20,841 nucleotides of DNA from positions 1 to 20,841 of the forward strand of contig CALSCQ010000727.1 in the NCBI GenBank assembly GCA_943704525.1, written 5' to 3'. The notes below the pieces were generated by a model. It did not search any database. It was not told the origin of the DNA and was given only the letters and a program-made list of their open reading frames with translations. Position 1 is the stretch's first letter. Every line of letters starts with the position of its first letter. This DNA is from Pigoraptor vietnamica. Its lineage: Eukaryota; Opisthokonta; Filasterea. Shown here piece by piece: positions 1-20,841 of the stretch. The translations under genes and the position numbers were made by a program.

Positions 1-10
1 GGGGGGGGGG
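1..10. repeat. G homopolymer at window edge
   Basis: Ten consecutive G bases open the window. This may be a real homopolymer or an artefact of a contig or read end. The intron of the neighbouring minus-strand gene appears to run into or past it. Confidence 0.6.
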
Positions 11-3192: not shown

Positions 3193-5685
3193 ATGGCCGA
3201 CGGTGACTCTTCCGCGTACTTGCCGCTTCGCAAGCGCATGCTTCTCAGTTCGGTCCCCAGCGACGGACCAAGCGCACCAGTCGAACCCTTGGTTGCTGTG
3301 CACGATGCCACACAGGCCGCTCTCGGGCAAGCGCCGCAGAGCCTCCCCGCAAAGACAGCGCCATTGGACGAGGTGGGTGGGCTCGGGTGTGCAATGGCGG
3401 AACGGAATGGATGGGAAGAACACTTCCCGATCTGAGATGATGCTCAGCATGATGACGCACGGCAGGACTCTGAGGGAATGATCGATGTCACGTCAGTGTC
3501 CGCAACCGCTGTGCCCTCGTCGCCATCAACGCAGCCGCATAAGCATGCAGACGGTTGGTCCCGATACGCTCGCTTGTGTGAATTTTCATCGCGTGTGCGT
3601 GTGTGTGAGCGTGTGATTTGTTGTTCTGCGCGCTGTGCGTGTGCACATACTTGTGCCTGAAGTCGTGTACAGCCGCCGCCATAGCACCGACGTCCAGAAC
3701 AGCTGCCGAGGGGGATGAGCCGGAAGAGGTGTACTGCATCTGCCGCACCAACCGCGAGGGCTTCATGATCCAGTGCGACGCGTGTACCGAGTGGTTTCAC
3801 GGCAAGTGCATCGGGCTGCTCAAGAGGGACTCGCAACTCATCGAGAATTTCTACTGCGAGGCCTGCATTGGTGCGTTGTTTGGGTGTATGGGTTATGTGC
3901 GTGCGCGCGTGTGTGCGTATGCCATGCGCGTGCGTGCTTGTTTGCGTGTGCGAGTGTGCCTGCGTTGCTCACTGCATATTGTTTTGGGGCGGATGTTCCT
4001 GTCAACGTCACTTCTCCCACACCATCTCACGCCAGTTGTGGTGCAGCGCAAGACCCCTCGCGGTCGATTGTGTACAAGACGGGCGCCGAAGGACCTCCGC
4101 AGGTGTGCGTTTGCACCATCGCACCCGTCCATCCTCACACACAATGACTTATCTTGCGCTCCACGCGCAGAAGCGCCCTCGTGTGCAGCAGTGCCACCGC
4201 CCGAGTTGCGGGAACCTGCTTCCTGCACCGGCCAACCGCAAGAAACGGACGTCAAAGGTTTGCGCCTGCGCCCGGTCTTTACAATTTTATTAACGCATGC
4301 ATCTGTGCGCTGTAAAACGACACACTCGCGACCTATTCATACTTATGCGACGCATGCATGCCCGGCATGTCATTTCGTCTCATTTCGTGTGCCTTTTCCA
4401 CGGCAGTACTGTTCCCGCGAGTGCGGCCTCATGTTGGCGCGCAGTCGTCTCGACCTCCTCGTGGGGGATTTGTGCGGTTCTTCGTCGGCGGGCGACGTTG
4501 CCTCCATCAAAACGGAGCTCTCGGGAGAAGGCGGAGGGCTCATGCCGGCGCCCGGTACTGCTCAGTGGCTAGCGCATACCATGTCGTCGCGTGCGAACGA
4601 AATGGACGCCGCGCAACTCTCGGAACTGTCGGCCCGCCGTGCGGCGGCCGAAGCGGCGATTGTCGAAGCCGAAGAGGCTTTGCAGCGTGTGCTCGAGAAC
4701 GTCGCGGCTGCCGCCACCTTGCCCCCCTCAACGGACGGGAAAGACGCGGACTCATCGGCAGACGCGCGCGTGTCGTGTGTGCTGTGCACCGAGTCGTTGT
4801 CGATGGGGCAGTACGGGCGTCACGTGGACAAGTGCGTGTTTAAGGTGTGTGGGTCGTAACGTAATACGCAAAGACTCTGTTAGCATTATCCGACGCGTGT
4901 TGTGGGCCCCACTTATATCGGGCATACGGCGCGCTTGGTGTGTGTTTTACGGAATTAAGTCGGTCGAAATAGAGTTAGGCTGAACTGACAGGCCCCTTCG
5001 TGCCTTGCATTACAGGGCTTTGCACCAGTGTCGTTCTCTGTTTTGGGCGGTTTCCCGCGCTTCCACCGCGTGCACGAATTCATGTGCGACGTCCGCGACC
5101 CTGCGAGCGGCGCCATCTGTGCCAAGCCGCGCACGATATGTTGGGCTCACAACAAAGAACAGCCGTGGCTGAACAATGCCGTCGTCAAGGTTGGCAGTCT
5201 TTTTGTGTGCACGCGTGTCGTGGGTGGTGTGCGCGTCTCGCTGCGCAGAGTTCATAGTCGTCGACTGTTGCCTGGTGGCGCCATGTATTCAAACCAAATT
5301 GCTCTGCAGAGGGGACTGAAGAATGCGCCCTGTGGGTTTCGCGAAGAGGACGGCAGCGTGTGCACCCGCTCCAAGTGCGTAAGCCACTATGAGTGGGAGT
5401 TGACTTCTCGCATCCTCGCCGAGTACGAGTTGTTTGACAAGGTATGTGTGGGCACGTTGTGTGCGTGTGTGCGTGTGTATATATGGACGACTCATTGCGT
5501 GTGTGCACGCGTGTGTCCGTTTGCGTGCTTGTCTGGATGACTCATTGCGTGTGTGCATCCTCTCGAAGTACTGTACCCTTGAGCGAATTCTTCGCGAGGC
5601 CGAACTATTGTACACGCGAATGGAGCGGCGCGCGCACACCACACTCGCGACGCTGCTCAACCAAACGACCGCCGTCTCTCAATAG
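3193..5685 (+). CDS. CFP1: CFP1/Spp1-type PHD-finger subunit of the Set1/COMPASS H3K4 methylase
   Basis: Nine exons join in frame: 3193-3372, 3448-3553, 3673-3870, 4047-4102, 4171-4257, 4407-4844, 5016-5189, 5310-5441, 5569-5685, giving 495 residues. A PHD finger at 115-161 has all eight C4HC3 ligands (C117, C119, C130, C133, H138, C141, C157, C160) and the Trp (W136) expected of an H3K4me3 reader. The C-terminal part matches the CpG-binding-protein C-terminal domain of CFP1: QQCHRPSCGN (186-195), YCSRECG (210-216), a helical stretch, a CVLC...HVDKC pair, CDVRDP, CAKP...CWAHN and a Cys-rich CGF...CTRSKC near the end. No CXXC DNA-binding finger lies between PHD and C-terminal domain, so the architecture resembles yeast Spp1. 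Donors of introns 2 and 7 are GTTGGT and GTTGGC; the last acceptor is the weak CGAAG. The first 95 residues are low-complexity. The product should act in the nucleus. Confidence 0.92.
5489..5557 (+). repeat. Direct repeat in last intron of the CFP1-like gene
   Basis: Nineteen identical bases, GACTCATTGCGTGTGTGCA, occur at 5489-5507 and 5539-5557, exactly 50 bp apart, within a TG-rich intron. The copies are preceded by TGGA and one variable base. Confidence 0.85.
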
Positions 5686-5996: not shown

Positions 5997-7013
5997 TTAC
6001 GACGCCGACGCCATCTTGCCACGCGAGCGCAACTCGCGCTTTGGAGAATCGATCCCCGCGGGCACATCCGCAGCCGTCGTCCCCTTCGCAGCCATGCGCG
6101 CACTGCGCCGGGGTGTCGAGGGCGTGCCGTTCTCTCCGACGTGGCCATCCGTGCCGTTCACGTGACCGTTGGTGGCGCCGTCGTGCGACTTGGCCTTCGC
6201 GTCAGCCTCGCGCACGTCGTGGATGGGACCGTGCCCCTCGAGCGACGAAGGGTGGCGGTACGACCCGCAGAGGCGGTCCCAGAGGGTGAAGAACTGTCCG
6301 TAGTTGTAACGGAAGAAGAGGTGGTGGTCGGTGTGGTGCGCGGCGCCGTTGATCATGTCCTCGACGAGCTTCGGTACGCGGTAGTCGCCGTCGTGGATCG
6401 AGATGGTCCAAAAGTTGACAAAGACGAAGAGGCCGAGGTAGGTGAGCTTGTGAAGCGGGAAGAGAAAGACGAAAATGTGGTAGGGGGAGCTCTGGAGGAA
6501 CCCGTCGAGCCAGTGGAAGGCGTGGCTGGCGAACGGCGAGGGGACGAGCCACTTGTGATGGGGCTTGTGCACGGCGCCGTAGATGAGCGGGTGATGCAGC
6601 CACCGATGGATCCAGTAGATGCACATGTCGGTGAAGAAGAGGAAGAAGAAGAAGCTGAAGACGAGGTAGGGGACGCCGTACTCGTCGACGTTGTCGTACA
6701 GGCGGCTATACCCGCGCAGCTCGGCGAGGAAGAGCGCAATCGTCGGCAGGCTCATCATCGGAATCGAACGGCACGTGTAGGCAATCTCGAGCGCGATTTG
6801 GTTCTCGAGGAACTTCTTGTGTCGCATGAGGCTCTTGTCGAAGATAAAGACATAGCTCAGAGTCGCAAAGAAGAGGTACAGCGCGTACCCGCCGAGGTTC
6901 GTGACGACGAAAAGCGTCAGGATTTGTCGTCCCCAGTAGTCTTCCGGCCACGACTCCGGGTAGACGTACGGCGTGAGAAGCTGCTCGTCCGCAGCGTGCA
7001 CAATGAGGTCCAT
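5997..7013 (-). CDS. SC5D: Sterol C5-desaturase (lathosterol oxidase), intronless
   Basis: Introduces the C5-C6 double bond in sterol synthesis, using a di-iron centre in the ER membrane. A single uninterrupted frame gives 338 residues. All three histidine boxes of the fatty acid hydroxylase/sterol desaturase superfamily are present: H136xxxHH141 (HRWLHH), H149xxHH153 (HKPHH) and H226HxxHH231 (HHTDHH). Further SC5D signatures are TPYVYPESWPEDY (14-26), ELRGYSRLYD, PFASHAFHWLDGFLQS, WTISIHDGD and YNYGQFFTLWDR. Hydrophobic segments near 31-58 and 114-135 look membrane-spanning. The ATG at 7013 is chosen over one 31 codons upstream because the family starts close to MDL and the YVYP motif. About 65 residues after the catalytic domain form a basic, low-complexity tail absent from the core family. 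It is the only gene here without introns. Two CCAAT boxes lie upstream on its strand. Confidence 0.96.
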   Translation of the reverse strand: MDLIVHAADEQLLTPYVYPESWPEDYWGRQILTLFVVTNLGGYALYLFFATLSYVFIFDKSLMRHKKFLENQIALEIAYTCRSIPMMSLPTIALFLAELRGYSRLYDNVDEYGVPYLVFSFFFFLFFTDMCIYWIHRWLHHPLIYGAVHKPHHKWLVPSPFASHAFHWLDGFLQSSPYHIFVFLFPLHKLTYLGLFVFVNFWTISIHDGDYRVPKLVEDMINGAAHHTDHHLFFRYNYGQFFTLWDRLCGSYRHPSSLEGHGPIHDVREADAKAKSHDGATNGHVNGTDGHVGENGTPSTPRRSARMAAKGTTAADVPAGIDSPKRELRSRGKMASAS

Positions 7014-7251
7014 CTCAATTCCCCAAACGAAATTCGAAAATGAGATGCGCCCAACACTGCCTAAGCGGCGAATGGTGCCAGCGATCCCCAGGGGCGAAAA
7101 TGGCACTCAACTGAGCACACAAAAATTGCAAGACACTGCAGAAGTCGCCGCGAGTGTGGTGTCTTTGTGTGTATTCGTGGACGTGCGGGAATCCTTTTTG
7201 ACGACTGTGTCGTGTGCGTGTGCTGTGAGCGCGGCTGGCACGTGTGGTGTG

Positions 7252-8179: not shown

Positions 8180-11100
8180 ATGTCGAGCTCCGAAGACGGG
8201 GACGATGTTTATCGGTGAGTTCGTGTTGCTGTTGTCAAAGACGAGCGCATGTGCTGATTGGGTGTTCGCTTGGCCCGGCAGTCCCGCACGGACAGTTCTC
8301 TACACGGGAAAGCTGAGCAAGCAGCTCAATAGTATCTTCCAAGAAGTCCAGCGGAATTTGCCCACCATCGACGACTTCGAGAGTGACGTGGGTGACCAAC
8401 ATTGGTGATCATGCGCTGTTGCCTTGAAAACTTTCACTAACTCGTGCTGTGCTCGTGTCGGCGGCGTAGGATGACGGTGGCGATGACAACGAGCCCGTCG
8501 AGGTGTTTGTGCGAAAGGGGTGGACGTCCAAGTTCATAACATCCATTGATGACGACGACGACTTCGACGACCCCCCGGCGGCACCGGAGAAGAAGCCCCT
8601 GTCTTCGCCAGCCCCTGCGGAGCCCACTGCAGCGCACGGCAGCGCCGCATCCACCAAGAGCGCGAGTCCCCTTCGTGGCCGTAAGGACAATGACTCGTTC
8701 GTGTTGGAGGAAATTGAGTTTGAGGAGGTTGATTACGTGGGCCTGGGGCTCGCTCCCCCTCCCGTCACCGAAGCCGTCGGTGGCGAGACATTTCACCCGT
8801 CCGAGGCATCGCAGGCATTCCGTTCGTACATTCCGACTTCGGCGCCGAGCATAGCGCTTCCGCTGGGCGATCGTGAGCTCGATGCGCTGCTCGACTCACT
8901 CGCGGGTGGTCAAGGTGCTAAGAAGGGCAAGCCGCCTGTGCGCGATGCGGCCGTTGCGGGAAAAGCGCCGGCCGTCGCCAGTCCGCCGCAGAATGTCGTC
9001 GACGATGGAAATGGGTTTCATAGCGACGAAACCTCGGACGGCGACGTGGACCTTGACGCGTCATCGGTGTCGGACGTTGACATTGTGTGGCCGCATGCGG
9101 ATCCCGGCGACGTGGACGAAGCCGTCGCCCATTGGGACGACGAAGACATTCTCGAGCACTCGCAACCGCAGGTCTCCCTGCAGGAACTGTCAAGGGCACT
9201 TGCGGCGGAAAAGCAGAAGCCGCCCAAGCCGACAAAACGACAGCAACGAAGTCCTCAGCCGCAACCGCTGCCGCAGCCGAACAAGACGCCTTCGCTCCAG
9301 GGCAAATTTGCGCGCCTCGCCGGCGGCCCTCCGGTGGCGCCTAGCGTCCCGGAGAAGGACAAGGAGAACACCGTCTTTCTCGATCTGCGGCCGCCATCGA
9401 CGACACCGGGGCCGTCGCCCGTCATGGGAAAAGCGGAGAGGTGGGCGCGGCTGCATGTCACGCTGTGCAAGGTGTTGGATGCTTCCTGTTGTGCTGACTC
9501 ATCCTTACCCTGTTTTCAGTCGCGAAGACGAGCGAGAAGAGTCATCAGCGAGTCCGTCGAGTGACAGCGAGGAGGATTGGCGCGAAGTGAGGCGGCAGGC
9601 GCGGGGGAAAGCCTCGACGGCGAGCGTGGCTCGGCAAAAGTCAGCCGCCAACCCGCCCCACAATCCGCCACCATCCTCGCAGCCAACTGCACATGACGCG
9701 TCCGCGCGACAAAACTCTGCGCGTGCCGATCGAGAGGCTCTGCGAAAGCGGAAGGAGGACGTCAGCGCGGCCATGATCACCGCCGCGTCGGCGGCTGGTC
9801 GTCGTGCCGTGTGCGAACCGGAGGCGTCGTTCGGCCCACTACCGGATCGAGCGGTGGGCGACGCCGTAGAGACGAAGCGCCAACGATGTCTTGCGCTTGT
9901 GAGCGCCGACTTCCACGGGCTCGCACCCGCGGATGCCGCGAGATTGGCGGGGTGGCTGTTTGGAGGATCGGGCGCGCCTTCAACTGATGCGGAATCGGAT
10001 GCGGAGCCGTTTTCCATTGTGTCGGCGTCGCTTGTTGGACCGTGGCGGCCGCCGGGTGAGGACGTCGATAGGCAAGCGCGCCTCTATGCTGTCTTGGAGC
10101 CGGCAAAGCAGCGCGCGGTGACGTTCACTCAGTTTCTCGGGCGCGTGCGCGCCTTCCTCGAGAAGAACACCCTGCGAGGTGTTATGCTGTGGAGTGAGCC
10201 TTCTGCGTCCGAATCGACACCAGTGCGCCTCTTTGACATTGTGCACGTCCACGATAGCGAAGGAGCTGCCGAGGCGTTCTTGTCGGCAGAGCCGTCGCTC
10301 CTATGGTCGCCGTCCTCTGCGAGCGGCGCGACGTCGAGTTCTGGAGACGACGTGGCCGTGTCGGTCGTGCACTGCGCGCGGGCGGATGTCGTGGCGTCTG
10401 TAATTCACCGCGCGTTTGCAGAGGGTCTCTGGATTGCGGGTCTGCGGAGCGTGGCACGACCATCCGCGGGACTGTCTCGCGATGCCTTTGACACGCGGAT
10501 TCGCGGCGGTGACGGCCCCGACGTGGCGGCGGGTGCGGCATGGGACGGGTCACGATCAGTGGTCGCTCTCTGCGTCTGCGGTCGTAGCGCGCTTTCTAGG
10601 TGGCAGGCCGCTGTCGGTCCGGCTGACCCGGCGATCGCGCGGCAAACGGATCCCCGCTCCCTGAGGGCGTCACTCGGTTCGACGCGTGCGCGCAATGCCC
10701 TCACGTGTACGCGAGGGACGGACGCGCGGCGCGCATGCGAAGACGTTGCCTATTGGTTCGGCGGACGGCTGTCGTCGGGCGATGCGAGCGTTCCAGCGGC
10801 GGCGGTGGTGTCAGCAGCGCTGGACGGCGACAAAGGTCGTCTTCCTGTGCTTGTCCATCCCCGCCGCGAAACCTGCGCCTTGCTATTTGCCGTGGCGCCG
10901 TCATCGTCCCTCGCGTACACTCTGGCGACGTGTTTGGAGTACTGCGAATCGCTTTCCCTCTCGCTCGTTAGCGTATGGCGCGCAGTTGGGCTTGCGCGAA
11001 CGTCCAAAGCGCTCGCTGGTTCGGGATTGCTGGCACTTGCAAGTGTCGCTGCAGGGCTCGTGCCCAAGAGCGGATCGGAACCCGTCGCATACGTCGTGGC

Positions 11101-13230
11101 GTTTTCTGGCGACGGTGCGGGCGTTGTCGGTACAGCGTGCGCCCTCCACCTTCGTGAGAAGTGCCAGGCCTTGGTGGCCGTGGGCACTCGTGTAGATGCG
11201 GCGCAGCTTGCCGCGCTGAACGCATGCGCGCCGTCTGTCCCCAGTCGCTACGAAGTAGAGACGTCGTTGATGGGGCTGGACTCCCCGCTGGTGCGGACTT
11301 CGGCAGAATCGCGGCAGACGATGTTAATGGCATTTGTGGGCGGAGAGGGCCTTCGCGCAAGCGGTCCACTGCTGAATGCAATGGTGAACGGCACGAGGGG
11401 CGCACCCGTCGTCAACGGCGCCGCTTCCGTGCGCGTTTCTCCAACCGTGTCTGGCGGCGATCGTGAGACCGACGAACCGTTTGCGATTGTGGGCGCAAAG
11501 ACGCTCGCTACGCTCGAGGAGTACTACGCTAAGGAGCTTACGCCGCTCGAGATTGGCGAGGGAGGATGGCGCGCGTCTGTGCGGGCGTTGTGCGGCAAGT
11601 CGGTGCTGCTGGTGGTTGTGCAACGCCGCGCTGCGTTTTCCGCGATCGCGCGATACGGCATCGGTGCCCCGAAGGACGCGTCAAACCCCGTGCTTGTGTC
11701 GCCGTCGCCCGACGTCGCCTTCCGGCAGATCTCACTGCTCTTTAGCGAGTCCGAGCTGTCGATGGCGCCGCCGACCCAAAGGGAACAGCGTTTCCTTCCG
11801 CCTTTTCCGGCTTCACTCGGCGTACTTGCCGCGATGACGTCTGGACCTTCGACCATTACGACTGTTGCCTGCGTGTGGGGCTCCCGGCGCGTGCCGATGG
11901 AGCAGCGGCTGGGACGGCTTCTACGGCGCGTCGCGAGGGACGGCTTTTCGGTCGCGGGTTTGCGCATTGTCGACAAGCGGCCGAACCTTTGTGGGATCGC
12001 GAAGGCTCCCGGGGACGCCTCCGTGCCGCATGCCGTCGTGTGCATTCGACGGGAAAATGCGGTCGAGTGCCTCGTTGCCGTGTTGGATGACGAGGCTGAA
12101 GGTGACGCGTCGTCCGGACACGGCGCGGTCATTGACGGACTATGGGGTTGGTATCCTCTTTTTTCCGTGCCTGTCTGTGTCTGTGTCTCTATGCGTCTGT
12201 GCGTTTTCTTCGCTCCGTTGTATTGTCCTTCAAAGTTTTTGAAAAGTGCCTGACCTTGTGACGCGCAGGTTCACGAAGCTACGCCGACGCCCTGAGCGAT
12301 CAGTCCGCTGCGTTTCCCTCTGGTCTCTGTACATCCGCCTCTGAGGTATACGTCTCAGCCCGCATGTTTCTAACCCTTGTCCGTACTTGTGAGCCGTGTT
12401 CTCAGCTGTCATTCTGCTGTTTACTTTCCAGTGCCGCGAGGATGTCTTGGCCGTGTCATCGTCGCGCAAACTCGTGCGACGGCTCGCGCGCGGAGCTTCC
12501 GCACCGCCGGCCATGCGCGAGATTGTCGTCCTTGCGTTTTCCCGCCAAGTCATCAAGGCGCGCACCGATAGCAGCTCTCCCCATCCCATGAGTCCCCTTG
12601 CAGACGCCGTCGACGCTCTCGGAAAGGCCGGATTTGCGCTGGTCGCCGGCCGTCTAATGTGGCTGAGGTGCGCTGCCCTGCCTTTCCATGGGTATGTGCC
12701 CTCCCTTCTCCTGCTCCCTACTCACGTGACCCAATGCTCCATGCTGTAGACCCGACCAGGAGCAGGCCGTGCGCGCGGCGGGCTATTTCCCGCCCGATTT
12801 CATGGCGAATGTCGCGGGGGGTCCGTGGGCGGTGTTTGCGTTGGAGCGCGATGACGCTGTCGTGCGTTGCCGCGAAGTGATCGTTAGGTGGGCATATGTG
12901 GCCTTCTCGCTTGTGTGTTGGCAAGTCGTTGAGTCTTCAGTTGTAGCGGTTTAGCGTAATGTCCTAATTTTGTGGCCTATGGACCCTCTTCCGCTGCAGC
13001 GTGTCGCCGTGTTTGGCGCTTGGCAGCAAGCTATGGTCCCATGTCTACGTGTCGCACTCCGCTGAGCTGGTGAGCGTAATTTTGCTTAACATCGCTTTGA
13101 TTCTGTCCACAAGCCTCCTCCTACCTTCCGGCTTTTTCTGACAATTGCGATGCTGTGCATGCAGGCCTCGCGGGATGTGTGCACGTTCTTTGACAGTCTC
13201 CCTGGCTCGACGTCCTTCGAGCTTGCGTGA
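8180..13230 (+). CDS. DNAAF8: DNAAF8-like ciliary dynein assembly factor with degenerate NDK-like domains
   Basis: Nine exons join in frame: 8180-8214, 8282-8387, 8470-9440, 9520-12146, 12269-12345, 12432-12667, 12750-12887, 13000-13069, 13165-13230, giving 1441 residues. The N-terminal third is acidic, low-complexity and resembles my memory of vertebrate DNAAF8 (C16orf71): a short helix then LPTIDDFESDDD and VFVRKG; WDDEDILEH and SLQEL; then TVFLDLR (348-354) followed closely by SSASPSSDSEEDW. The remainder has several nucleoside-diphosphate-kinase-like segments. Residues about 730-790 carry VGPADPAIARQTDPRSLRA, the NDK C-terminal signature, but the catalytic His position in RNALTCT is Thr. 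The last about 145 residues look like a complete NDK-like fold, ending LWSHVYVSHS...DVCTFF, with Tyr at the His position. It is probably a non-catalytic scaffold for cytoplasmic preassembly of axonemal dynein. The exon 6/7 junction is ambiguous: GTATGT at about 12692 would add eight residues. Confidence 0.65.
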
Positions 13231-13628: not shown

Positions 13629-14547
13629 TCAGTTGGATGCGATGCCACCACGAAGTCGGTCGATCTCAGCACGTAACATCGCACACTCGTTATCGAGCGA
13701 CGCATTCTCGGCGGCAACTGCGTTCCGTCGCCGAACGGCCTCGTCGAGAAGGGCCTTAACAGCGGCGTTCATCGCGGCAAGTCGGTCCACGTTTTCGCGC
13801 ACCGTGTGCAGAAATTCCTTCTTCTTGAGCCGGCACAGCTGCGCGGCCTCGCGATTCTTCTCGCGCCTCCGCACGCTACGACCGTCCGACGGCGACGTCA
13901 GCTCGAGCGAGTCGTCAGATCCCGTCGAAACGTCATTCTCCTCTTCGATCGGCAACGCCCGTTCCCTGGCAGCAGACACGCGCCTCCGCTTCGTGGCCGG
14001 CTGCTTTTCGTCCTTTGCGCTGTCCGCCGACGATGACGAGAGGAGTGTGTTGCTCATCTGTGCGAGGAACAATAGCACGCTCGCAGACGACTGCTCGTCC
14101 TTGGGCACGCCATCAACCGGCAACTTGCGCTTTCGCGAAGCGCCATCGGCCCTCCCGTCAGCGACCGCCTGGCAACGACACAACAAGGGAACGGAATTGA
14201 GTGTTGACAGTTCAAGGGTACCGATTAGCGATTACGATTACCGGTCAAGATCCAAACTCACCGGCGTGACGGCGCCGGATGCCAGGTACCCGTCCTCCTC
14301 CGACACATAGCCGGAGTCTTTCCTCCACAAGTGCTTGGGGTTCAGTTCCGCAGACTGCCAAGAATGCGCATGCGTTGGCCGCGCTACGGCCTCGTCGTGT
14401 CTGTCATTGGTGGCTATGCACGCAACACTGCGCCAGGAATTGGAATTTCCGATAAGTGTACAATCCCGCCACTTTTCGGAACTGTCGGAACTGCCGATTA
14501 CATGCTAAACAGGCACATTGATTGCACGCCGCCACTCACCCGACCAT
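13629..14547 (-). CDS. CREB/ATF-like bZIP transcription factor
   Basis: Three exons join in frame on the minus strand: 14547-14540 (only 8 coding bases, ATGGTCGG), 14427-14262 and 14168-13629, giving 237 residues. The basic region (about 156-177) has the bZIP signature N163-x7-R171 in NREAAQLCRLKKKEF, closest to the CREB/ATF pattern. The heptad d positions follow at the expected spacing: V181, L188, V195, A202, V209, L216, L223, L230, so the zipper runs to the C terminus. Two basic clusters (SRKRK near 69, KRRR near 118) could be nuclear localisation signals. An acidic Ser-rich stretch (about 132-152) precedes the basic region and has no assigned role. Both introns have GTGAGT donors. The tiny first exon is supported only by frame and splice signals; exons 2-3 are firmer. 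The exact subfamily is uncertain. Confidence 0.85.
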
Positions 14548-15392: not shown

Positions 15393-16711
15393 ATGTCCGA
15401 CGACCACCCCGCCGCGCCGCCGACGGGCGAGCCGCCTGTTGCGCCCGTTGAAGATGCCGCCCTGTCGAAGGGAAAGAAGAAGGACAGGGAGCACGACGAG
15501 GCTTTGTCGGCCTCGCTCGTTGCCAGTGAACAGGAGCGCGTGGCGAAGCAGCTGCTTGCGCTTCAGATGCAGGGCGGCCTCTCTGGCGCCGCGGCTGCGC
15601 GCACGCTTGAGGAGAGCGCTGCTATGGAGCACAAATTCTGGAAGACACAGCCCGTGCCGCAGCTTCGTGGGTATTGGGTGGTCTCACATCTCTGAATTTA
15701 ATAAGGGGGCATTTGGGCTTCGATCTCATTTCCCGCCGATTTGCGCAGATGAGGACGTGACGGAGTGCGGTCCGATCGAGCCCGACAAGGAGCACGTGCA
15801 GCAGGAACCGTACAACCTTCCGCAGGGCTTTGAGTGGGACACGCTGGATCTTCTCAAACAGGAGCAGGTGGGCGTTGGTGATGGGTGTGTATGTGAGAGA
15901 GTGTGTGTATTGTGTGTCTGCGTGTGTGCGTGCGTGTGTGTGCGTGCGTGTGTGTTTGTGTGTAGGGGAGTGTGTGCGTGTGTGTGCGTGCGTGAGTGTG
16001 TTGTGTATGTGTGTCTGTATGTGTGTGTGCGTGCGCGTGTGTGTGTATTGTGTATGTGTGTCTGTATGTGGGTGCGTGCGTGTGTGCGTGCGTGCGCGCG
16101 TGTGTGGTGTGTGTTGTGTGTTTGTGTTGTGTGTGTGGGAGTGCGTGCGTGCGTGTGTGTGTATATCGTGTGTGTGTGTTTGTATTGTGTATGTGTGTGT
16201 GTGTGTTTATATTGTGTATGTGTCTGTGCGTGTGTGTGTGTGTGTGTGGTCGCCCCGTCAGTTGTCCATGCATTGGCATTCATTGTGGTGTTACGTAGCT
16301 GGACGAGGTCTACAAGCTTCTCAACGAGAACTATGTCGAGGACGACGACAACATGTTCCGCTTCGACTACTCGTCCGAATTCCTCAAGTGGTGAGCTGTC
16401 TGCGATGGCCGTTCTGTCTTCTCTTGATCGCCCACGCGTCTGTGTGCATGAGGGCACAGTGCAAATGGCACGTGTGTGTGTGTGTGTGTGTGTGCATGTG
16501 AGTGCAAGAGAGGGTTATGGACAGCTTGCGTGGTGCACGTGTCCCTGTTGGGCTCAAAGAGTCTCATCGTCTTGCGAACGCGTGCAGGGCGCTTATGCCC
16601 CCCGGCTGGAAGGCGATCTGGCATGCGGGCGTGCGAGTGAGCATCAACAAGAAGCTCGTCGGATTTATCAGCGCCATCCCTGCTACACTGCGCGTGCATA
16701 CGCAGTGGGTG

Positions 16712-16757
<46 letters not shown>

Positions 16758-17829
16758 CGTGCGTGTGTGCGTGCGTGTGCGTGTATGCCCGTCGTAGTTA
16801 CTCTGCGATCAATTGGAGGCGTATTCAAGGGGCACATAAGTCCATTTTAGCGCAGCATACAGTGCAATCTCTCATTCTTGCTCTAATTCGCCGCCTTCGT
16901 GCGTCGTCCAGTTCGCAGCTCCTCGTCGAGATCAACTTTCTCTGCGTGCACAAGAAGCTGCGGTCCAAGCGCCTTGCGCCCGTGCTGATCAAGGAGATCA
17001 CGCGACGGGTGCACCTCCAGGGCATCTTCCAGGCCACCTACACGGCCGGCATCTACATCCCGAAGCCCATTGCGAGCTGCAGGTCCGTCTTTCGTCTCCG
17101 CTGGTGATGACGGCGGGTGGTGTTTGTGTGCGGTGTTATCGCGCATGTGTTTGTGCCGTATGAACAACAGTGAGCGTATGGTTTGTTGACGTTCGCCGCC
17201 TGCGCTGCTTCCGCCACTACGATTGTTTGCTTTGAGCGAACGCGGCAACGACTTTTGGCTCACGGCAGCACGAATGCCTTGCACTTTGCAGGTACTGGCA
17301 TCGGTCGCTGAACCCGAAGAAGCTGATTGAGGTCAAGTTTTCGCAGCTCGGTCGCAATATGACGATGCAGCGCACGATCAAGTTTTACAAGCTGCCCGAG
17401 GCATGTACTGCATTCAACACACTTGCGCACATATCGCACGCACGCACTCACACACGCACATGCTCACACACATTCACGTACACACATACACGCACATTCG
17501 TACGCACGCACACGCAACAACACGCACGTGCATCTTATTGGCATGCGCGCAGAAACCGACGACCGTCGGGCTTCGCGAGATGCGTCCCTCGGACGCGAAG
17601 GCCGCGTGCGCGCTTCTCGTAAAGTACTTGACAAAGTTCAACGTCGCGCCCATCTACAGCGAGGAGGAGTTCGTGCACTGGTTCATGCCCCGCGAGGGCG
17701 TCATCAACACGTTCGTTGTCGAGGTGAGGGGGCGTATCTGTAAGCGTGGTGCTCTGCATGTAGTAACGTTCAGAATTTATTAGATAAGCGATCGAAGGAT
17801 GCGGCTCGTGATGCAAGTGTCCCTTGTCG

Positions 17830-17872
<43 letters not shown>

Positions 17873-18437
17873 TGTATGGTATTTGTTTCGCGTGCATCTT
17901 CCCTGACCATCGCGTGCTGTGCGCAGGATCCGTCGTCCCACAAGATCACCGACCTCGTCAGCTTCTACACGCTCCCCTCGAGCATTATGAACCATCCCAC
18001 GTACAAGCAGCTGCGCGCGGCGTATTCGTACTACAACGTCTCCACGAAGACGCCCCTTCTCCAGCTCATGCAGGATGCCCTCACGCTCGCGCACGGAGTG
18101 AGTGCCGCGACCTTGCGTGCTGGAGTTGTAACCATTTTACTAACGCCGTTGTTCGTGCGTGTCAACGCGGCTTATTGGTTAAGCAACTGTTTTGCGACAC
18201 GACGTGATGATAATTCCTCACTCGGTGGCGCACAGCCGTCGCCTCTTATTTGTCCTGTCTCACCCTGTTACTGCGCAGCTCGGCTTTGACGTCTTTAACG
18301 CGCTCGATCTGATGGACAACGAGGTCTTCCTCAAGGAGCTCAAGTTTGGGATTGGCGACGGCTGCCTCCAGTACTACCTGTACAACTACAAGTGCCCGTT
18401 CATGCAGCCTAACAAGATGGGCCTCGTGCTGCTCTGA
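15393..18437 (+). CDS. NMT: Glycylpeptide N-tetradecanoyltransferase (N-myristoyltransferase)
   Basis: Transfers myristate from myristoyl-CoA to N-terminal glycines of proteins. Nine exons join in frame: 15393-15666, 15749-15867, 16299-16390, 16588-16704, 16912-17082, 17292-17400, 17553-17723, 17927-18097, 18279-18437, giving 460 residues, the usual length. Family signatures run in order: a lysine cluster KGKKK near residue 30 (ribosome-binding type), [73 protein letters not shown] (207-221, acyl-CoA site), [43 protein letters not shown] and a C-terminal GLVLL. Its terminal carboxylate acts as catalytic base in this family. Intron 6 (17401-17552) is GC-AG. The exon 4/5 edge is ambiguous: donor GTGGGT at 16705 keeps the family length; GTGACT at 16709 with the next AG removes one residue. 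Introns 2, 4 and 7 hold long TG runs. The gene is divergent from bZIP. Confidence 0.97.
15886..16250 (+). repeat. Long degenerate TG/TGCG array in NMT intron 2
   Basis: About 365 bp of the 431-bp intron are alternating TG with TGCG, TGTAT and TGTTTG interruptions. It begins shortly after the GTGGGC donor and ends about 45 bp before the TAG acceptor. The frames through it encode only Val/Cys repeats and are not genes. Confidence 0.9.
16714..16753 (+). repeat. (TG)20 microsatellite in NMT intron 4
   Basis: Forty bases of perfect TG follow the donor region almost directly, then continue as TGCG-type sequence to about 16790. Confidence 0.9.
17401..17552 (+). other. GC-AG intron 6 of NMT, rich in CA on the sense strand
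   Basis: The donor reads GAG|GCATGT and the acceptor GCGCAG|AAA. The flanking conserved NMT residues fix phase 0, and the nearby GT (17406) does not fit the frame. The intron body (about 17428-17530) is made of CA, CGCA and CACA units, the reverse of the TG tracts in the other introns. Confidence 0.8.
17831..17870 (+). repeat. (TG)20 microsatellite in NMT intron 7
   Basis: Forty bases of perfect TG lie in the intron between exons 7 and 8, about 107 bp after the GTGAGG donor. The length is the same as the perfect run in intron 4. Confidence 0.95.
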
Positions 18438-18723: not shown

Positions 18724-19664
18724 TCAGTCGTCGTACGGCGGAAGGCCAAACGACTCTGGCTTGAACTGCTCGATCGACGAGAGCTGTGCGTCGGCGCAGA
18801 TTCCCACCGTCGACATGCTCGGGTCTGGCACAAACACGACACGCATGCCGGCATTGTGCGCTGCCTCGACGCCGTTGGGCGCGTCCTCGAACACGAGGCA
18901 GCACGACGGCGACGCGGGCTGTGCGGGGAAGCGGGACATGGCGACAAGGAAGAGGTCGGGGTGGGGTTTGCCGCGCTTGATCTCGGGATCATCGCCCGTC
19001 ACAATGAAATCGAACTGGGTGAAGAGGTGCTGGTGCCGCTGGGTCTTGAGGTCAAAGTGGCGCCGGTGCGAGCCCGTCGCCACGCAGATGGGGATCTTGT
19101 GCCGCTTCAGGTGCGCAACGAGACGTTCCACGCCTGTGACATTGTCAAGAACAGCCTCGATCAGCTGTGAACGGAGAAGAAAGCCCTCCATAGCAATCGC
19201 ATTTAACTGGGCAGCCACCTTGATTCATAACTGCTGCTAGCGGGAAGATAGACCGAAGCACACTGCAACCACCGAGTCCCCACCTGGCATTATGTTGCAC
19301 TGCGGAAACAGAACGTCCAGCATCTCCTCGCGCTCGCGGATGAAATCCTCCGCACTCAGCGGAATCTGAAGTGCCTCGACGTAGATGCGACCCGCCTCGA
19401 GCGCCTTCTTGCCCATCATTTGTGACTTGAGCGACCACTCGAAATTCTTGCCGTAGCGCTCGGCGATCTTCTGGCCAACGACCGTATAAAACTTCTCCGT
19501 GTCTGAAGATCGCTCACACCAAAAGTTGGGCGTAACTCGTGAGACACCTTGTGACGCTGAAGTGCGCTCAACGGGCAAATTGCGCGGCAAGACTCACCGA
19601 GAAGAAGTCCGTCCATGTCAAAGATCACGTGCGTGCACGCTGCGTGAGATGAAGTCGACGACAT
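18724..19664 (-). CDS. PUDP: HAD-superfamily pseudouridine-5'-phosphatase (HDHD1-like)
   Basis: Probably dephosphorylates pseudouridine 5'-monophosphate released by RNA breakdown. Three exons join in frame on the minus strand: 19664-19598, 19502-19284, 19133-18724, giving 231 residues, the usual length. All HAD motifs are present: motif I IFDMDGLLLD with nucleophile D16 and D18, motif II CVATGS with T115, motif III K151 in RGKPHPDLF, motif IV FEDAPNG with E178-D179. HDHD1-type signatures include MGKKALEA (about 52-59), SxHRRHFDLKTQRH, GDDPEIK and a C-terminal FGLPPYDD. The wider family also contains glycerol-3-phosphatase and sugar-phosphate phosphatases, so the substrate is an inference from the signatures. 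Introns are 95 and 150 bp with GTGAGT and GTGGGG donors. The ATG is nine residues before the first beta strand. It is divergent from the gene at the right edge. Confidence 0.93.
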
Positions 19665-20770: not shown

Positions 20771-20841
20771 TTGTGTGTGTTGTGTTGTGTGTGTGTGTGT
20801 GTGTGTGGCGTGTGTGTGTGTGTGTGCGTGTGTGTGTGTGT
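20771..20841 (+). repeat. TG microsatellite at right edge
   Basis: Alternating TG with a few TGTTG and TGGCG breaks runs to the end of the window, inside the presumed second intron of the right-edge gene. Confidence 0.9.

Follow-up and report, generated by a model that had tools for sequence, protein, structure and literature searches.

A 20,841-nucleotide stretch of eukaryotic DNA from Pigoraptor vietnamica with closely packed genes (contig CALSCQ010000727.1; here, the window) carries on its forward strand a gene that joins an N-terminal third, likely homologous to the dynein assembly factor DNAAF8, to a C-terminal part with at least three domains resembling nucleoside diphosphate kinase (NDK) by sequence profile. 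The gene is real and apparently intact, and on balance it probably encodes a divergent cytoplasmic dynein assembly factor of the DNAAF8/DAAP1 type, with a C-terminal pseudo-NDK scaffold for outer-arm subunits. The fusion of DNAAF8 to NDK is itself already known from non-mammalian vertebrates (Lee et al. 2020, PMC7785291, cited here and below for the portions of that paper that treat this protein). What is new, as far as the searches show, is that an apparently non-vertebrate genome encodes a probable DNAAF8 homologue and that this protein has three or more NDK-like domains. A literature search over titles and abstracts, with most subscription journals and preprints outside its reach, found no non-vertebrate DNAAF8 with NDK domains.

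Gene model and DNAAF8-like N-terminal third

The gene starts with an ATG at position 8180, ends with a TGA at 13230, and contains eight GT-AG introns of 58 to 122 nucleotides each (Table 1). Both ends agree with those originally predicted, and the nine-exon model yields 1449 residues in place of the approximately 1441 claimed. The least secure parts of the model are the 77-nucleotide exon at 12269 to 12345 and the GTTGGT donor preceding it. Short introns and dense genes argue against a vertebrate source, and the gene thus probably stems from an organism outside the vertebrates.

The N-terminal third is acidic, rich in proline and serine, and disordered-looking. Residues 1 to 482 contain 17% aspartate plus glutamate, 11% proline, 11% serine, and 19% hydrophobic residues, and residues 483 to 1449 contain 32% hydrophobic residues. 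The three motifs on which the original prediction was based, an LPTID-acidic motif, TVFLDLR, and a SxSDSEED patch, are present as LPTIDD (residues 38 to 43), TVFLDLR (348 to 354), and SSDSEED (384 to 390). DNAAF8, which takes part in building the motors that make cilia beat, is also called C16orf71 and Daap1, and the Pfam model PF15773 (DAAP1) is the DUF4701 of Lee et al. (PMC7785291). The Pigoraptor protein stays below the 27-bit cut-off of this model and is therefore named DNAAF8-like here, not a formal member of the family.

Because the filters of hmmscan conceal weak matches, segment scores were measured indirectly, by substituting single Pigoraptor segments into human DNAAF8 and scoring the result against PF15773, with deletions and composition-matched shuffles as controls. 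The human sequence used scores 752 bits against this model. Three segments (M1, M2a, and M3), collinear with those of human DNAAF8, each scored above all seven of their shuffles. For M1, the human segment gave 316.2 bits, the Pigoraptor segment 201.0, the deletion 194.7, and the shuffles 192.6 to 195.3; the corresponding values were 294.0, 228.3, 199.7, and 199.7 to 215.0 for M2a, and 239.0, 205.5, 166.9, and 167.2 to 186.2 for M3. Both halves of M3 contribute to its score. Scrambling of TVFLDLR alone lowered it to 188.4 to 192.8 (four variants), a cost of 13 to 17 bits, and shuffling of the tail alone lowered it to 192.7 and 195.1 (two variants), a cost of 10 to 13 bits. The human counterpart of TVFLDLR is TIFIDLR, and an acidic serine patch is likewise shared. 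In plain alignment to human DNAAF8, none of 2000 full shuffles reached the score of the M3 region and 19 of 2000 local ones did, and that of the M2 region was reached by 68 and 66 of 2000, respectively. Homology of the N-terminal part to DNAAF8 is judged likely, short of formal proof.

NDK-like domains of the C-terminal part

NDK (PF00334) is the sole domain that Pfam reports. The full-length sequence scores 28.3 bits (cut-off, 27 bits; E = 1.8e-6), with a matched stretch at residues 716 to 784; taken singly, the first and the last domain score 23.2 and 13.9 bits. A phmmer search of the PDB retrieved 17 sequences at E values up to 10, the first eight of which are two-NDK chains of about 375 residues, several of them NDK7 or FAP67. 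The best E value, 3.5e-11, was that of the first NDK-like domain against NME7/FAP67-type chains, followed by NME5 and other NDKs. A photosystem protein among the matches (E = 0.038) was judged to be due to chance.

Residues 483 to 1449 were scanned as a whole, which removes the choice of segments, with NDK profiles of 18 and 35 sequences and 300 whole-region shuffles. The 18 sequences of the smaller profile are A and B domains of the NME7 type together with NME5, RSP23, and NDKs of bacteria, archaea, and phages. The three top matches, at residues 655 to 786, 1316 to 1440, and 1018 to 1115, were equalled by the best match of none of the shuffles with this profile, and of 0, 0, and 1 shuffle with the larger one. 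The fourth and fifth matches are at chance level, being reached in 178 and 233 of the 300 shuffles (80 and 113 with 35 sequences). The reversed sequence scored at most 1.8 versus 102.0 for the true one (3.5 versus 84.7 with 35 sequences), and the N-terminal part scored 6.8 (2.4). This result indicates three NDK-like domains, separated by unexplained stretches, with matches that begin about 300 to 360 residues apart.

Segments chosen by eye (D1 to D6) were also scored, with 2000 shuffles each in end-to-end alignment to the 18-sequence profile and 1000 each in local HMMER scoring. In the former, D2, D4, and D6, which correspond to NDK-like domains 1, 2, and 3, exceeded all shuffles (z = 13.2, 5.8, and 7.5), and three control stretches from the N-terminal part were negative. 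In the latter, the scores of D2 and D6 were reached by no shuffle, that of D5 by 1, that of D4, which is weaker in this test, by 27, and that of D1 by 190, with D3 unscored. A first reading by eye as six tandem NDK domains does not hold up for D1, D3, and D5 in the shuffle tests, D5 being suggestive only, and the predicted series of NDK-like repeats stands for three domains. The six segments are hardly alike among themselves; the best of the 15 pairs, D1-D6, was equalled in 10 of 1000 shuffles, followed by D1-D4 (30) and D3-D4 (33).

The catalytic histidine of the NxxH motif is replaced by threonine, leucine, and tyrosine in domains 1, 2, and 3, respectively, the residue of domain 3 being taken from the end-to-end profile alignment. 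Threonine and tyrosine had been predicted for the two best segments, and leucine is that of the remaining domain. The lysine of the KPD motif is absent, and the asparagine preceding the catalytic position is retained in domains 1 and 2. Given the replacement of the histidine, the three domains are probably catalytically inactive pseudo-enzymes. Stretch D1, not itself supported as NDK, carries VHVHDSEGAA, which is like the NDK catalytic motif with its histidine kept.

Given no other sequence, AlphaFold2 modeled domain 2 poorly, with a predicted local distance difference test score (pLDDT) of 31.6. When D2 aligned with 17 NDK loci was supplied, the pLDDT was 69.3, the predicted template modeling (TM) score was 0.66, and the order of strands and helices was NDK-like; this model depends on the alignment supplied and is not independent of it, although a poor outcome was still possible. 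The best 50 of its 596 Foldseek matches (E values up to 10) were all NDKs, with TM scores of 0.51 to 0.65.

Proposed function and alternatives

In Xenopus, knockdown of Daap1 causes severe loss of outer arms, its N-terminal domain is sufficient for placement in outer-arm assembly foci, and its interactors include Dnai1, Dnai2, Dnah9, Nme9, and Ruvbl1 (PMC7785291). Mammalian Daap1 is described there as DUF4701 throughout, whereas in all non-mammalian vertebrate orthologues it is followed by a long C-terminal part that includes an Nme8/Nme9-like NDK domain, lost in mammals. The Pigoraptor protein shows the same order of parts, an acidic, disordered-looking DAAP1-like region followed by a long NDK-bearing one, which supports its reading as an assembly factor of this type. 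It differs in an N terminus too divergent for the Pfam model, in its number of NDK-like domains, at least three against the single NDK domain described there, and in its apparently non-vertebrate source. Human DNAAF8 has 520 residues, mostly disordered (2025 review, PMC12633730, likewise cited for its portions on these proteins), and is without the NDK part in both accounts, as had been stated in the original prediction. Its further claim, that the vertebrate form is a remnant, applies to the mammalian form instead, because all non-mammalian vertebrate orthologues carry both DUF4701 and NDK (PMC7785291).

By analogy with Xenopus Daap1, the DAAP1-like N-terminal third would direct the protein to the cytoplasmic compartment of outer-dynein-arm assembly, a step that is proposed because of the literature on this relative (PMC7785291). 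The C-terminal two thirds would form a scaffold of three or more NDK-like domains, too degenerate to act as normal enzymes, which may hold outer-arm subunits through protein-protein contacts, perhaps at the sites of NME8/NME9-type subunits. Binding is proposed for this part because the catalytic residues are lost and because Nme9 is an interactor of Daap1. NME8 and NME9, the outer-arm thioredoxin-NDK proteins, likewise bring NDK domains into outer-arm-associated proteins, but Pfam reports no thioredoxin domain in the Pigoraptor protein.

The finding mainly suggests a greater age and size of the two-part design than had been assumed. With a non-vertebrate source, the fusion would be older than the vertebrates. 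If homology and source both hold, the statement that DUF4701 is vertebrate-specific (PMC7785291) would be contradicted, factor and fusion would both predate vertebrates, and the largely disordered human DNAAF8 (PMC12633730) would have lost a folded part. The sequence also offers a divergent query for finding DNAAF8 in protists amenable to dissection of outer-arm assembly. Lee et al. mention a possible parallel with a Tetrahymena NDK protein (PMC7785291), and Q22MS1, an NDK-containing protein tied to outer-arm assembly or transport and termed Tetrahymena-specific (PMC12633730), resembles the Pigoraptor protein by description only; whether it is the same factor becomes testable. A more sweeping proposal, which we regard as doubtful and put forward tentatively, is that DNAAF8 is an ancient eukaryotic outer-arm scaffold of acidic tail and pseudo-NDK array, with the tail alone kept in mammals, Q22MS1 as the ciliate counterpart, and NDK-fold scaffolding general, though overlooked, in dynein pre-assembly.

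Several results weigh against the gene being a DNAAF8-type assembly factor. Plain hmmscan did not match DAAP1 at E values up to 10 with the whole protein, residues 1 to 483, or two fragments, so that the prediction of DNAAF8 by profile search fails in this form and holds in the more sensitive substitution test. The segment bounds in that test were picked by eye, and M2b, the other candidate for M2, gave a weak result (211.1 bits versus 203.0 to 209.2 for three shuffles). Plain alignment of the whole N terminus to human DNAAF8 exceeds chance only moderately, its score being reached by 4 full and 43 local shuffles out of 1000 each, that of the M1 region is weak (138 and 111 of 2000), and residues 421 to 482, the end of the DAAP1 region, have no match to the human protein (1729 and 1832 of 2000). 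The nearest solved NDK chains are of the NME7/FAP67 type and NME5, not outer-arm subunits. Furthermore, no homologue of the protein was found in viral contigs, prokaryote genomes, and plasmids, collections without eukaryote genomes. An NME7 domain as query retrieved no locus in the viral contigs.

The alternative that survives best, although unlikely, is an axonemal or basal-body NDK protein of the NME7/CFAP67 or NME5/8/9 type with an unrelated disordered N terminus, its resemblance to DAAP1 being due to chance in an acidic, serine-rich sequence. The hmmscan result and the two-NDK chains that head the PDB matches would fit such a protein, and NME7/CFAP67 (FAP67) shares tandem NDK domains with it. 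However, three segments in the correct order exceed composition-matched shuffles, the scrambling of TVFLDLR is costly by itself, and the protein differs from NME7/CFAP67 in its DAAP1-like N terminus and in the loss of the catalytic histidine. Moreover, since Pfam reports only NDK, neither a DM10 domain nor a thioredoxin domain is seen, which we take to mark NME7 and NME8, respectively. A thioredoxin domain is also given as a mark of NME8 in the relevant portion of PMC8754002.

It is rather improbable that the protein derives from DNAAF8 but has a different function in the cell, as it might where outer dynein arms are lacking. The intact gene fits continued use, and its relatives are known for outer-arm assembly alone, as far as PMC7785291 describes them.

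Still less probable is that the locus yields two proteins, one short, DAAP1-like, and terminated at 9564, the other NDK-like and encoded from exon 4 onward. With the intron at 9441 to 9519 retained, the frame of exon 3 is open up to a stop at 9564, and since M1, M2a, and TVFLDLR all lie upstream of this intron, the full fusion depends on its splicing. The intron nevertheless has the ends GTGGGC and TTTCAG, and its removal restores the frame. Exon 4 (9520 to 12146) is a single open frame that carries the acidic half of M3, to which the M3 score is sensitive, together with NDK-like domains 1 and 2, and vertebrates have this fusion as well (PMC7785291). Activity as a nucleoside diphosphate kinase or protein-histidine kinase is very improbable: the putative NDK-like fold and the asparagines retained in domains 1 and 2 would suit it, and the VHVHDS motif of D1 could supply a histidine, but all three domains have lost theirs along with the KPD lysine, and D1 is unsupported as NDK.

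Feature coordinates and neighboring genes

Table 1. Features of the DNAAF8-like gene, in window positions
Feature	Position	Strand	Residues	Remarks
Whole gene, nine exons	8180..13230	+	1-1449	GT-AG introns, consistent phases, internal stops absent
Exons	8180-8214, 8282-8387, 8470-9440, 9520-12146, 12269-12345, 12432-12691, 12750-12887, 13000-13069, 13165-13230	+		
DAAP1-like M1	8316..8550, split by intron 8388-8469	+	24-74	LPTIDD; substitution test
DAAP1-like M2a	8824..8925	+	166-199	RELDALLDSLAGGQ; substitution test
DAAP1-like M3	9349..9589, intron 9441-9519	+	341-394	TVFLDLR 9370-9390 in exon 3, SSDSEED 9557-9577 in exon 4
Stretch D1	9884..10312	+	493-635	NDK identity unsupported; 211/2000 shuffles, 97/2000 with lax gaps
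NDK-like domain 1 (D2)	10370..10765	+	655-786	Thr at catalytic His position; 0/300 shuffles; Pfam stretch 716-784
Stretch D3	10835..11233	+	810-942	Not NDK by the tests used; 1769/2000 shuffles
NDK-like domain 2 (D4)	11297..11758	+	964-1117 (profile match 1018-1115)	Leu at catalytic His position; 0 and 1/300 shuffles, two profiles
Stretch D5	11843..12473, two introns crossed	+	1146-1286	Suggestive only; 112/2000 shuffles, 12/2000 with lax gaps; local HMMER 1/1000; chance level in whole-region scan
NDK-like domain 3 (D6)	12561..13200, exons 6-9	+	1316-1440	Tyr at catalytic His position; 0/300 shuffles, both profiles

Elsewhere in the window, Pfam finds a PHD/CpG_bind_C protein, a fatty-acid hydroxylase, a bZIP protein, an N-myristoyltransferase (NMT), and a HAD hydrolase. 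The PHD finger and CpG_bind_C pieces are spread across several exons at 3618 to 5540, in a protein that we take to resemble the CXXC1/Spp1 type. Intact open reading frames on the reverse strand encode the fatty-acid hydroxylase (5997 to 7106; 90.8 bits) and the HAD hydrolase (18724 to 19218; 64.1 bits). The bZIP protein lies just downstream of the DNAAF8-like gene on the reverse strand (13629 to 14186) and scores 24.1 with bZIP_Maf (cut-off, 22) and 25.1 with bZIP_1 (cut-off, 27.6). A search for tRNA genes with the bacterial code found none.

Pieces of the NMT gene are found at 17403 to 18289, and the joined fragment matches best the PDB chains of NMT2 and NMT1 (E = 7.7e-37 to 1.3e-35), with the next group at 3.6e-25. 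Long GT/TG tracts occur on the forward strand at 2430 to 2495, 15885 to 16248, 16714 to 16784, 17831 to 17875, and 20772 to 20841, three of them inside the stretch of the NMT gene, and a CA tract is present at 17445 to 17497.

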